Source: Candidatus Peregrinibacteria bacterium
Lineage (GTDB): Bacteria > Patescibacteriota > Gracilibacteria > UBA1369 > UM-FILTER-53-11
Reading direction: 5' to 3'
Length of the DNA: 64,000 nucleotides
Assembly: GCA_016186205.1 (NCBI GenBank)
Contig: JACPMA010000003.1
Span: forward strand, 1-64,000
This document shows, piece after piece, positions 4,810 to 51,045 of this stretch (its first letter is position 1; each line of letters begins with the position of its first letter). The notes beneath the pieces were generated by a model. It saw only the letters and a program-made list of their open reading frames with translations. It searched no databases and was not told the origin of the DNA. Position numbers and translations under genes: made by a program.

Positions 4810-4839
4810 ATTATAGAGATATAAACTAAATTTTGTCAA
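4810..4839 (-). promoter_or_regulatory. Promoter of the methyltransferase gene
   Basis: TTGACA (4834-4839) and TATAAT (4810-4815) on the minus strand, spaced 18 bp. Both boxes match consensus perfectly. The -35 box lies inside the 3' end of recX. Confidence 0.75.
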
Positions 4840-5326
4840 CCTCAACTGACAAGGAATCAATAAGTCCCCATATTGTATCTGGAGAAAAGCCGCGGCTTGT
4901 GAGGAGTTGAATTGCCTTTTTCTTGCGTAACACCGGCGGCATTTTTTCTTTTTTCCATTGCCGTTTCCGGCTTTCTAAAAGTTGAAGCGCAAGCGGCTCT
5001 TCATCAATATCGCGCTTTTCCCACGCTTGCTTTGCTTGCTCGAACGGAATGCCGCGCCTGTGCATCTCATGCAGAAAAAGAAATTTTCCGACCGGCCGGC
5101 TTTTTAAACGATATTCGAAATAGTCGCTCAAAATTCGGCTGTCATCGAGGTACTGCAGCTCTTGTAGCCGCTTTATAACTTTTTTAACAGCAATGTCTAG
5201 ACCGCTTAATTTTAATTTCTTACCGCGCTGGAAAAATTTCCTAGAAATTTCCGCTTCGCTGTAATTCTTTCGTCCAAGCAGATGAAACGAATAATTCAGG
5301 AGAAGTTTGTAAGAATCTTTTTCCAC
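4826..5326 (-). CDS. recX: Regulatory protein RecX
   Basis: RecX binds RecA filaments and limits their extension. The open frame reaches back into recA, but its first plausible start after the recA stop is the GTG at 5324-5326, giving 166 residues, within the family's range. The sequence is basic and helical with the three-helix repeats typical of RecX (LLGRKNYSEAEISRKFFQRG, LDDSRILSDYFEYRLKSRPVGKFLFLHEMHRRG, KKAIQLLTSRGFSPDTIWGLI). It lies 13 bp after recA, so the pair is probably cotranscribed. The exact start is uncertain because no clear Shine-Dalgarno is visible. Confidence 0.85.
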   Translation of the reverse strand: MEKDSYKLLLNYSFHLLGRKNYSEAEISRKFFQRGKKLKLSGLDIAVKKVIKRLQELQYLDDSRILSDYFEYRLKSRPVGKFLFLHEMHRRGIPFEQAKQAWEKRDIDEEPLALQLLESRKRQWKKEKMPPVLRKKKAIQLLTSRGFSPDTIWGLIDSLSVEVDKI

Positions 5327-5339
5327 GGAGATAATATTA

Positions 5340-6374
5340 TCATGCCTTTTCCACCACAGGCGGATTTGCGAGAAATTTTCGCAAATCGGCTTCAAGCGCT
5401 TTTGTAACCTTTGCATTCCCCAATAGAAAACCCTTTGCTCCTTCTCTGCCCTGGCCAAGTTTTACATCACCGTATGTATAGAAGGCACCGCTCTTGTGAA
5501 CCCGTTCATATTTTACGCCCAAATCGAGCAAATCTCCGACGTAGGAAATGCCTTTGTTATACATAATATCGAATTCCGCGGTTTTAAACGGCGGCGCGAC
5601 CTTATTCTTAACCACTTTCACTCGCGCGTGGATTCCAACAATATTTTTTTGATCGCCGGTTCCTTCGTCAATTTTTCCAATGGAACGGATGTCCATACGA
5701 ACGGAAGAATAAAATTTCAACGCATTGCCTCCTGGCGTAGTTTCAGGATTCCCAAACATAATCCCGATTTTCATGCGGATTTGATTTATAAAAATCACCG
5801 CAGTTTTTGATTTGCTGATGCAAGAAGTTAGTTTTCGAAGCGCCTGACTCATAAGCCGTGCCTGAAGCCCCATATGGCTATCGCCCATTTCGCCTTCGAT
5901 TTCCGCTCTCGGCGTAAGCGCTGCTACAGAATCAATAACAATGACATCAATGGCATTGGAACGCACAAGCGTTTCTGTAATTTCAAGAGCCTGCTCACCG
6001 GAATCCGGCTGGGATACGAGCAAATTCGTCATATCCACACCAATACGTTTTGCATATTCCGGATCGAGCGCATGCTCGGCATCGACGAAAGCACACTGCC
6101 CTCCTCTCTTCTGCGCTTCAGCAATAATATGGAGAGTAAGCGTGGTTTTTCCGGAAGATTCAGGACCGTAAATTTCGGCTACGCGGCCGCGTGGAATTCC
6201 TCCGCCGAGAGCAAGATCAAGAGAAATAGAACCGGTGGAAATTGTTTCAATAGGAACCTGCTTTGATTCACCCATTTTCATAATTGAACCCTTGCCGAAG
6301 TTTTTTTCGATTTGCGCGAGGGCGAGTTCGAGAGCTTTTTTCCTTTCTGTGTTTTGCGGATTTTGTGGAGCCAT
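5340..6374 (-). CDS. recA: Recombinase A
   Basis: RecA forms filaments on single-stranded DNA, drives strand exchange and acts as co-protease in the SOS response. The 344 residues carry the Walker [10 protein letters not shown] near residue 70, the VDAEHALDP motif, Walker B ([10 protein letters not shown]), loop L1 ([10 protein letters not shown]) and loop L2 ([14 protein letters not shown]). It is followed closely by recX. Its promoter (6433-6461) has an 18-bp palindrome filling exactly the space between the -35 and -10 boxes, which suggests repression by a LexA-like protein. No lexA gene is present in the window. Confidence 0.98.
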
Positions 6375-6432: not shown

Positions 6433-6461
6433 AGCATATATGAGTATGCACTCATAGTCAA
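6433..6461 (-). promoter_or_regulatory. recA promoter with palindromic operator
   Basis: On the minus strand, TTGACT (6456-6461) and TATGCT (6433-6438) are spaced 17 bp. The palindrome TATGAGTATGCACTCATA (6439-6456; 7-bp arms, 4-bp centre) fills this spacer. The same palindrome with two transitions and one substitution in the centre occurs at 50195-50212, in front of an HNH protein gene. Position and symmetry fit a repressor operator such as a LexA/SOS box of unfamiliar sequence. Binding is inference. Confidence 0.7.
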
Positions 6462-6471
6462 GCGGATTTTG

Positions 6472-6500
6472 TTGATGAATTTGAGAAATTCTGATATTAT
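6472..6500 (+). promoter_or_regulatory. Promoter of small RNA 6506-6591
   Basis: TTGATG (6472-6477) and TATTAT (6495-6500) with a 17-bp spacer, pointing right, away from recA. No open reading frame with a ribosome-binding site follows before the terminator at 6558-6591. Confidence 0.6.
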
Positions 6501-6505
6501 AGGCT

Positions 6506-6591
6506 TGGCAATGAAAATTGCCTGGTGGATCTCTACGGGACTCGTCCTGTGGACCCAAGAGCGCTCTCAAAATATTGAGAGGCTCTTTTTT
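6506..6591 (+). ncRNA. Small structured RNA, unknown class
   Basis: The segment is bounded by a promoter and an intrinsic terminator and has no plausible coding frame. It can fold as a multi-branched RNA: a CAAT-GAAA-ATTG tetraloop hairpin (within 6508-6521), a second hairpin ACGGGAC/GTCCTGT (6535-6550), and a closing CTTGG/CCAAG pairing (6504-6508 with 6555-6559) that competes with the terminator stem. It does not contain the signature motifs of SRP RNA, tmRNA or 6S RNA that I know. The part 6522-6556 resembles the tRNA-like locus just downstream (both open GGTGGATC and close GTGGACCC or ATGGACCC). Confidence 0.5.
6558..6591 (+). terminator. Intrinsic terminator of the small RNA
   Basis: AGAGC and CTCTCAA (6558-6570, one bulged G) pair with TTGAGAG and GCTCT (6575-6586) around an AATA loop, followed by five T residues (6587-6591). 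This is a strong rightward terminator. Confidence 0.85.
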
Positions 6592-6603
6592 ATGCCGTGG
6601 CGG

Positions 6604-6695
6604 TGGATCCATCGGGAATCGAACCCGACCATCAAGATGATAAGCCTGACATCAGAGCCATCTATGGACCCACGTATCCTACGGCGCGCGGACCC
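6604..6695 (-). ncRNA. tRNA-like RNA (non-canonical or degenerate tRNA)
   Basis: The minus strand holds a perfect T-arm (TCGGG-TTCGATT-CCCGA) followed by the 3' acceptor half TGGATCC, discriminator A, then CCG rather than CCA. Two upstream GGGTCC copies can pair with it: GGGTCCA (6665-6671), giving a 68-nt RNA too short for D and anticodon arms, and GGGTCCG (6689-6695), giving a 92-nt class II-like RNA. Both acceptors contain a G3-U70 wobble. In the longer fold a five-pair stem encloses CATAGAT, which lacks the universal U33, and a six-pair variable-arm-like hairpin follows. I cannot assign an anticodon. Upstream is the second copy of the 28-bp dprA promoter sequence, so it is probably transcribed. 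Confidence 0.5.
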
Positions 6696-6734: not shown

Positions 6735-7105
6735 AACGCAAAATCCGCCATAGCGGATTTTGCGCTTCTAGTAAACAAAAATGCTTTATTGAAATTGTAG
6801 AAAAAATTTCATTTATGCTTATTGCAGCTTCGATAAAGCACAATAAATTTACCAAAATGGCAATATAATTTCATAAGTTACATTTGACTCCTGAAGAGTC
6901 TTTTATGTAAAAGTCTGAATTTGGTGTGTCTATTTTATGACAACACTCCTCTGACCTTTAAAAATTCATCTCCCATTTCCTATTTTAGGATGTGCTTCCA
7001 GAAGTCAATTCTGGATGGCGCATATAAGGGAGTACTACAAAAAAGGGATTTACCTTTGGGTCATGTCGAAGTGGAGATAAAAAATAATGTTGCGATTTTA
7101 TCTTT
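6735..7105. other. AT-rich intergenic stretch without a recognisable gene
   Basis: No convincing coding frame is present. The visible structure is a perfect 11-bp hairpin GCAAAATCCGC-CATA-GCGGATTTTGC at about 6737-6762, a short GACTC-CTGAA-GAGTC hairpin followed by TTTT near 6888-6906 that could act as a weak terminator, and a CCAGAA/TTCTGG hairpin near 7000. A 78-codon frame at 6921-7157 runs into the G+C-rich island and has no family resemblance or ribosome-binding site. Confidence 0.5.
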
Positions 7106-8100
7106 AGCTCGACGTGGCCCGGGGTTCCCCCGGCACGATCACCCCCAAAAGGGGTAAGGAGAAACAGCCATGAAGACCGATCTGATCACGATGGACGGCA
7201 GCAAGGTGCGCAAGGGCTTCGGCATCGCGGACGCGGCGCGGCGCTGGCTCGAGGACGACAACGGCGGCAAGCGGTACCGCCACATCGGGCTCGTTCAGCT
7301 CATCGCGGCCGTGGTCGGCAACCAGGACGAGGCCTACAAGCCGAACGACCAGAGCATCGCGACGCGCATCCGCACGGGCGTGCAGTACGTCGCGCGGGTC
7401 GCCGGCGAGCGCATCGTCGCGGACGCGATCTCGCTGGACGAGCAGGTGATGGCGGCGTTCAACAACTCCGTCACCGCCCTGTTCGCCCCGAGCCGCTTCA
7501 CCGACGCCACGCAGCGCCAGGTCTGGAACCCGCAGACGCCGCTCGCCACCGCGAACGATCTGCTGGAGGTGCTCAACGCCTTCGGCCAGATGCAGTTCGC
7601 GGCCGGCGACGTCGAGCAGTACGGCGCGGCGATCCTGGCGATCGCGGCCGGCGTGGGCACCGCGGAGGGCAAGACGCTCCGCAACGCCTACACGCTGACC
7701 GCGACGGGCTCGCTCACGGAAGTCAACCTCCGCGAGATCGCCGACCGCCTCCAGGCCGAGGGCTCGGCGATCGAGTCGCTCGGGGACGACACCTGCGCGG
7801 CCCTGCACCGGGCCGGCAACGTGGCGTTCGCCAACATGCCGACGGCCAAGACGGCCGCCGCGCAGCCGCGCGCCTAGCCCCGACGCAACACGTCGAGGCA
7901 ACAGCGCACAAGTAGTACCCCCAGGGAGATGACTCGGTGAGTCTTCTCGTCTAAATCCGCCGACTAACGTCGCCGGACAGACCGGGGAATCTCCCTGGGG
8001 CAGTTGTACCCGAACTCTCCCGCCGCGCAAGCTGCGGGAGAGTTCGACCTATATATAAGCTCGCGCCGTACGCTCGCAACAAAGTGTGCACGTGCGCAAC
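7106..8100. other. Sharply bounded G+C-rich island
   Basis: Base composition changes abruptly near 7106 from AT-rich to strongly G+C-rich and reverts near 8100. Inside are one gene (7170-7877) with G or C at nearly every third codon position, a GCCCGGGG/CCCCCGGC-type hairpin and an ACCCC/GGGGT hairpin just before its ribosome-binding site. After the gene lie two stable hairpins: CCCCAGGGAGAT with ATCTCCCTGGGG (7919-8000 region) and GAACTCTCCCGC with GCGGGAGAGTTC (about 8011-8047). No transposase, integrase or clear target-site duplication was found. It is either a recent transfer or an assembly chimera. Confidence 0.7.
7170..7877 (+). CDS. Unknown protein of the G+C-rich island
   Basis: I do not recognise the family. 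The 235-residue product is soluble-looking, rich in Ala and largely alpha-helical by composition, with no signal peptide or membrane segment. It contains no familiar catalytic motif. The start is supported by AAGGAG about ten bases upstream. The N-terminus (DGSKVRKGFGIADAARRWLED) and the run of short helices suggest a folded domain rather than random sequence. Codon use is utterly unlike its neighbours. The ORF on the opposite strand across the same region (7104-8030) has an Arg/Gly/Ala-rich composition typical of a high-G+C shadow. The gene appears intact, and foreign origin is inferred from composition alone. Confidence 0.65.
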   Translation: MKTDLITMDGSKVRKGFGIADAARRWLEDDNGGKRYRHIGLVQLIAAVVGNQDEAYKPNDQSIATRIRTGVQYVARVAGERIVADAISLDEQVMAAFNNSVTALFAPSRFTDATQRQVWNPQTPLATANDLLEVLNAFGQMQFAAGDVEQYGAAILAIAAGVGTAEGKTLRNAYTLTATGSLTEVNLREIADRLQAEGSAIESLGDDTCAALHRAGNVAFANMPTAKTAAAQPRA

Positions 8101-50181: not shown

Positions 50182-50212
50182 TTTACTATCATTATATGAG
50201 CATATACTCATA
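50182..50212 (+). promoter_or_regulatory. Promoter/operator of the HNH protein gene
   Basis: TATGAGCATATACTCATA (50195-50212) repeats the recA operator (TATGAGTATGCACTCATA) with three differences, all in the six central bases. A weak promoter TTTACT (50182-50187) and TATACT (50203-50208), spacer 15 bp, overlaps it. The ATG at 50218 lies 9 bp after the -10, so the mRNA would be nearly leaderless. Confidence 0.65.
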
Positions 50213-50217
50213 CTTTT

Positions 50218-51045
50218 ATGCTGGATCAATTTCTCAAAATATCTGATGGCGAACTTTACTCCAGATGCAAACATTATGGAGAAATTTCCTTGAAATATCG
50301 CTGGAAATTTGCCGGACTTTTGCCGGAGGTATATAGGAGGCGGCTTTATAAAAAGAAAGGCTACGAATCGATTTTTGAGTTTGCGGCGAAGTTGGCCGGC
50401 ATGAGTGAGAGGCAAGTGTATGTTGTTCTGAATTTGGGGAAAAAATTTGAAACTAAGCCAATTTTAAAAAATATGCTGGAGCATGGAGAGGTGAGCATTA
50501 ACAAATTGGCGAGAATTGCATCAGTGGTGACAACAGATAATGAAGCATTTTGGGCAACGCAGGCAAAATTATTGCCTAAGACCGCCCTCGAAACGTTAGT
50601 AAGGGATGAAAAATTTCTGCCCGGGCATCACGCAAACAGTAAATTAACAATGCCGCAAGAGGTTAATATTTCCGCAGAAGTGAAGCAAAAACTCCTCGAG
50701 CTGCAACAAAAAGGCATTGATATCAATGCTATGCTTCTTGAATTTTTGGAAAAACGGGAGCTTGAAATCGCGCAGGAAAAAGAAAAACTTTCTGTGGAGG
50801 CAAAAACAACGGAATCACGCTATATTCCGGCTGCTACGCGCAAATTGTTACAAAAAGAGTATGGCGAAAAATGCTCTATAACTTCATGCAATAAACCTTC
50901 TGAAGAAATCCATCACAATCAACGATTTTCACTTGCGCAAACGCACGATCCGAAATTTCTCGCGCCGCTCTGCAGAGAGCACCATATTATTGCACATACT
51001 GTCGATTTACAATTTAGGGAATTTCGGGCGCGCGCCGGTCCATAG
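50218..51045 (+). CDS. HNH-endonuclease-domain protein
   Basis: The 275 residues have a helical N-terminal part (residues 1-190, with EREL-rich helices and a predicted coiled segment near 150-195) and a C-terminal HNH nuclease domain. The HNH signature is in KCSITSCNKPSEEIHHNQRF near residue 220 and LAPLCREHHIIAH near 245: two Cys of the zinc site, HH metal ligands, and a closing His. The promoter carries the palindrome found in front of recA, which suggests induction with DNA damage. Its end overlaps the convergent aroE by 39 bp. Confidence 0.8.
   Translation: MLDQFLKISDGELYSRCKHYGEISLKYRWKFAGLLPEVYRRRLYKKKGYESIFEFAAKLAGMSERQVYVVLNLGKKFETKPILKNMLEHGEVSINKLARIASVVTTDNEAFWATQAKLLPKTALETLVRDEKFLPGHHANSKLTMPQEVNISAEVKQKLLELQQKGIDINAMLLEFLEKRELEIAQEKEKLSVEAKTTESRYIPAATRKLLQKEYGEKCSITSCNKPSEEIHHNQRFSLAQTHDPKFLAPLCREHHIIAHTVDLQFREFRARAGP

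Follow-up and report, generated by a model that had tools for sequence, protein, structure and literature searches.

SOS boxes take the form CTGT-N8-ACAG in E. coli and are of the GAAC-N4-GTTC type in Bacillus and Mycobacterium, and in the complex of E. coli LexA with DNA the recognition helix of the repressor contacts the bases. By 2021, 17 distinct LexA motifs had been reported (PMC8565304). A study of the SOS network of Patescibacteria, the superphylum to which the genome analyzed here belongs, reported a LexA-binding motif in 2017 (Sanchez-Osuna, Barbe, Erill; as cited in PMC8565304 and PMC7739468) and, as far as these citations describe it, may already include the GGTGAG motif that we present below for the whole order. 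The LexA regulon of M. tuberculosis includes HNH genes, those of the 13E12 family (PMC4181829).

The window that we analyzed, a stretch of 64,000 nucleotides from a Candidatus Peregrinibacteria bacterium, carries a palindrome in the promoter of recA that we interpret as the operator of such a system. As in the described LexA/RecA SOS systems, the genome has a LexA orthologue with a winged-helix domain, an Ala-Gly site and a Ser/Lys dyad, lexA itself is preceded by a box, recA and Y-family polymerase genes are among the predicted targets, and the operator overlaps the promoter. The difference lies in the operators: the order has GGTGAG-N6-CTCACC, the window's family has TATGAG-N6-CTCATA, and neither resembles any of the LexA motifs quoted in the literature that we compared. 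The box, TGAGY-N4-RCTCA with TA or GG as outer bases, is indeed unlike the SOS boxes of E. coli and Bacillus, as the preliminary description of the locus had stated. Divergence of the LexA box is in itself a known theme; what looks new is the shift at the level of the family and the link between SOS and an expanded group of HNH genes that lack a Pfam match, and we found neither this link nor the family-level co-change of operator and repressor in the literature searched, the 2017 Patescibacteria work aside. Starting from one promoter, the comparison yields a predicted DNA-damage regulon, at the level of sequence, for uncultured CPR bacteria.

Geometry of the recA promoter

The recA gene (5340-6374, minus strand; 344 aa) matches the Pfam families RecA (E = 5e-138) and RecA_C. 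Downstream of it lies a recX-like gene (4826-5458, minus strand; Pfam RecX_HTH3, E = 1.3e-6), whose start is uncertain and whose ORF call overlaps recA; both genes are probably on one transcript. The core promoter of recA (6433-6461, minus strand) comprises the -35 hexamer TTGACT (6461-6456), a 17-bp spacer and the -10 hexamer TATGCT (6438-6433). Read directly from the sequence, the palindrome TATGAGTATGCACTCATA occupies positions 6439-6456 in front of the gene. It had been presented as an 18-bp palindrome exactly between the -35 and the -10. The palindrome is real, but its symmetry is strictly 7-4-7, with seven plus seven positions around an asymmetric ATGC centre (TATGAGT-ATGC-ACTCATA), and not that of a perfect 18-mer; it fills the spacer and abuts the -10, but has one base in common with the -35 hexamer. 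On the recA strand, the predicted operator reads TATGAGT-GCAT-ACTCATA within the promoter sequence CGCTTGACTATGAGTGCATACTCATATATGCTAAAATC, its arms TATGAGT and ACTCATA extending across the spacer and into the -35 by one base, at a distance of 65 bp from the recA ATG. The lexA promoter of the same genome has the same layout, TTGACT-ATGAGCGCGCACACATA-TATACT (box at C3:2339), and most relatives share this geometry.

The box in relatives and the LexA recognition helix

We compared 99 related genomes, of which six form the window's family (G000-G005, a single clade in which G000 is the window's genome), 83 belong to other families of the order and ten are class-level outgroups from other orders (G089-G098). 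Of the 99 genomes, 93 contained LexA relatives and 95 contained RecA. The upstream regions that we read, 52 of lexA and 32 of recA from the order, came from the best-scoring loci and from chosen families rather than from a random sample; all of them match the core TGAGY-N4-RCTCA in at least 8 of its 10 positions (52/52 for lexA, a box in its own promoter being the mark of autoregulation, and 32/32 for recA), and 47 of the lexA and 31 of the recA regions do so at 9 or more. TTGAC abuts the box at 65 of the 84 loci, and 64 of those 65 also have a -10 of the TAxxxT type. Tandem boxes are frequent in the lexA promoters of the order.

Exact GGTGAG-N6-CTCACC sites are absent from the six family genomes and present in 78 of the 83 order genomes of other families, against at most one per genome for the reversed control. 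Exact TATGAG-N6-CTCATA sites number 12 in five of the six family genomes and two among the other 83 order genomes. The outer dinucleotides follow the same division, with TA 15, TG 7, CA 1, GA 1 and GG 0 in the family (n = 24), and GG 117 and TA 0 in the other families (n = 144). By these counts, TATGAG-N6-CTCATA is a family-level variant of the order-wide GGTGAG-N6-CTCACC box, and the motif of the recA promoter alone therefore retrieves almost nothing outside the family; the order-wide form came to light when lexA promoters were read first. Conservation upstream of recA in relatives, which the preliminary description had named as a source of support, holds for the core at 32/32 loci. In the ten outgroups, the recA and lexA upstream regions that were read lacked such a box; these genomes had no exact GG sites and contained three stray exact TATGAG palindromes.

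The LexA protein of the window's genome (C3:1664-2389) scores above the TIGR00498 cut-off (E = 3e-41), matches LexA structures in the PDB and keeps the Ala-Gly site (PVVGHIPAGGP), the catalytic Ser in GDSM and the Lys in TVKRY; the genome is predicted from these motifs to encode a cleavable LexA with its Ser/Lys dyad intact. In the alignment, E. coli LexA has the recognition helix RSPNAAEEHL, most of the order has SSDNSILKHL and the window's genome has KSDGFVIHCL, with KSDGF[IV][IV]HC in all six proteins of the family and xSDN[SG]xxKx in all 46 of the others. Because the helix contacts the bases and both elements differ in the same family, operator and helix changed together, in a clean co-change that took the two outermost bases of each half-site from GG to TA (or TG). 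The family is one clade, and the co-change therefore counts as one evolutionary event and not many. GG is likely the ancestral outer dinucleotide, since it is present in nearly all other families, and the TG half-sites look transitional. The family thus offers a natural experiment on repressor and operator change, in which two outer bases shifted family-wide in step with four to five helix residues.

We take the palindrome in the recA promoter to be the LexA operator, that is, the SOS box of this Candidatus Peregrinibacteria/Peribacteria lineage, with a probability of about 0.95. The SOS reading put forward in the preliminary description is supported by the presence of the box before lexA, recA (32/32), the dinB genes of the family (4/4) and HNH genes. 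With the same probability, and well ahead of any rival, the locus is explained by a LexA that occupies the promoter spacer and is removed when RecA stimulates its cleavage; binding, repression, cleavage and induction are inferred. A LexA dimer on the box would cover the spacer between the -35 and the -10 and keep RNA polymerase off the recA promoter. RecA filaments on damaged DNA would stimulate LexA to cleave itself at the Ala-Gly bond, and cleavage would free recA and lexA from repression, along with the HNH paralogues, a small number of other genes and, in genomes that have it, dinB.

It is very improbable that the box is instead the operator of a different repressor of recA, lexA and the nuclease genes, be it a second LexA-like protein on contig C18 or an unrelated regulator. 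The genome does encode such a second protein with an S24 peptidase domain, but in 52/52 genomes the full-length LexA orthologue has the box in its promoter, the recognition helix of full-length LexA changes exactly where the operator changes, and the C18 protein is an outlier of 26% identity whose upstream region, as read, contains no such box. This protein (L017, G000:C18:466-1047) combines a winged helix with the peptidase domain and has a recognition helix and a promoter that look different from those of full-length LexA. Its neighbors, judged by eye, are a DNA methyltransferase gene and a RecB-like nuclease gene, and it is possibly the repressor of a mobile element.

Box copies and the HNH genes behind them

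The near-identical palindrome that had been noted before a distant HNH gene, TATGAGCATATACTCATA, was found at 50195-50212 (plus strand), just before the gene start at 50218, and is predicted to be a second LexA operator. A scan of the whole assembly (1.39 Mb) returned five exact sites, against none for the reversed-pattern control, and seven sites with one mismatch. Eleven of these 12 sites lie directly upstream of genes, namely recA, lexA, seven HNH paralogues and two LAGLIDADG genes; the remaining one (C9:57238) is inside a gene and is probably a chance match. An eighth HNH paralogue (C14:92562) has a site with two mismatches 3 bp ahead of it. Weak sites of this kind were not counted, because in the family-wide scan the two-mismatch counts barely exceeded the control except in G000. 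A single box separates uvrA, 229 bp away, from a divergent HNH copy, and another HNH copy adjoins lexA. Together with the family genomes, the promoter scan suggested earlier thus recovered lexA, recA, dinB and HNH nuclease genes.

The dinB genes of the family are all boxed (4/4), with the box 26-65 bp ahead of the match to the polymerase domain, and no dinB was found in G000, a 92%-complete assembly, or in G002. Among the loci read, Y-family polymerase genes behind an exact or near-exact site comprise L081 (UmuC/DinB, with a GG box), L119 and L120. Further genes behind such sites encode two Bro-N proteins (L098 and L107; by eye, L107 is DinD-like), a DUF2130 protein (L200), a protein that looks like RmuC and lacks a Pfam match (L116) and LAGLIDADG proteins (L005, L012 and L198). 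At L119 and L120 (in G001 and G003), dinB is divergent from what by eye is an RNase HII-like gene, with one predicted LexA box common to both. In the window's genome, three LAGLIDADG endonuclease genes are clustered (L156, G000:C18:196500-202187), two of them preceded by their own predicted LexA box, 2-11 bp from the start codon; L198, a relative in G002, is also boxed.

Eight of the nine full-length HNH genes and two LAGLIDADG genes sit between a few and about 75 bp downstream of a copy of the box, as would also be the case if it were a recognition or insertion site of these mobile genes and not a regulatory operator. We find that explanation hardly credible, for the box precedes recA, lexA and dinB where there is no HNH gene, persists in genomes in which no member of the HNH family was found (G006, G007 and G008, for example) and has, between -35 and -10, the geometry of a repressor site. 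The box as a target site of the HNH proteins was likewise rejected because HNH-free genomes keep it. Chance is negligible, as had been argued from the second copy: low-stringency counts in the window are only mildly above expectation (four matches at up to two mismatches against 1.34 expected, a weak excess), but exact-match controls are near zero and every genome examined from the order has the box before recA and lexA.

The HNH-nuclease-like gene in the window (50218-51045, plus strand; 275 aa) matches a PHROG HNH endonuclease profile (E = 2e-6), and its AlphaFold2 model has a pLDDT of 93. A profile search of the genome gave ten matches, nine of them full-length and one a fragment of 38 positions; eight of the full-length copies are boxed upstream, and no box was seen in the sequence read for the ninth (C18:143059). 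In these proteins the N-terminal half is all-helical and the HNH motif is C-terminal, with a zinc/HNH core CxxxxC...HH...C in which C219, C224, H232, H233 and C252 are invariant in 45 proteins. The family has no Pfam or NCBIfam match and was not found in viral contigs by the patterns used. A PDB search of the fold gave no match at E ≤ 0.001 and weak partial matches to ParB/Noc DNA-binding domains, McrA, IscB and Cas HNH proteins. Members occur in 71 of the 99 relatives, at 1 to 24 copies per genome, and in none of the ten outgroup genomes; named matches come from Candidatus Peregrinibacteria, Peribacteria and Gracilibacteria, and from two records labelled Nitrospirota, which may be misbinned or transferred. 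The family is almost confined to this order. In a tree that included seven of the genome's own copies, these fall in several places, with one cluster of four from this genome, a pattern that points to old paralogues plus lineage-specific amplification.

Every upstream region shown for HNH genes of the family (L123, L124, L129 and L136) has a TA-type box. Across all families, 19 of 69 named HNH loci are boxed at 12 or more of 14 positions, against 0 of 69 in the control, and outside the window's family GG-type boxes precede the HNH genes in part only. Predicted LexA control of the HNH genes thus looks general in the window's family and patchy in the order. Like the 13E12 genes of M. tuberculosis, these form a multi-copy HNH family under LexA control, predicted here from the boxes. 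DUF222 is the domain of the 13E12 family; none of seven HNH members examined had a Pfam match to it at E ≤ 5, a difference from the mycobacterial proteins, and the parallel may be convergent. A multi-copy HNH family that has no name is in this way tied, by prediction, to the SOS response and echoes the LexA-controlled 13E12 genes of mycobacteria. If LexA does occupy these boxes, one tentative extension, which we think somewhat less probable than its opposite, is that order-specific, amplified HNH nucleases with their own LexA boxes (up to ~24 genes in ~1.4 Mb) have largely taken over the SOS response of Peregrinibacteria. DNA damage would then set off a burst of nucleases, acting either as mobile elements spread by repair or as a damage-triggered defence or self-destruction.

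Other features beside recA

Three further features lie upstream of recA. Positions 6480-6592 (plus strand) may give a short transcript divergent from recA, with a promoter-like TTGAGA/TATTAT followed after about 90 nt by an inverted repeat and a T-run; Rfam returned no match at the gathering score. At 6601-6671 (minus strand), we observed a tRNA-like RNA whose acceptor and T arms are good but which lacks a proper anticodon (ARAGORN 'tRNA-???'); it scores 23 bits with the tmRNA model; the normal tmRNA of the genome is at C16:13977-14401, and ARAGORN found no such tRNA-like RNA beside recA in nine relatives. Positions 7100-8000 form a 0.9-kb island of ~70% GC within a region of ~42% GC. It contains a 235-aa ORF (7170-7877) that has no Pfam or PHROG match, and is either a foreign cassette or a chimeric assembly.
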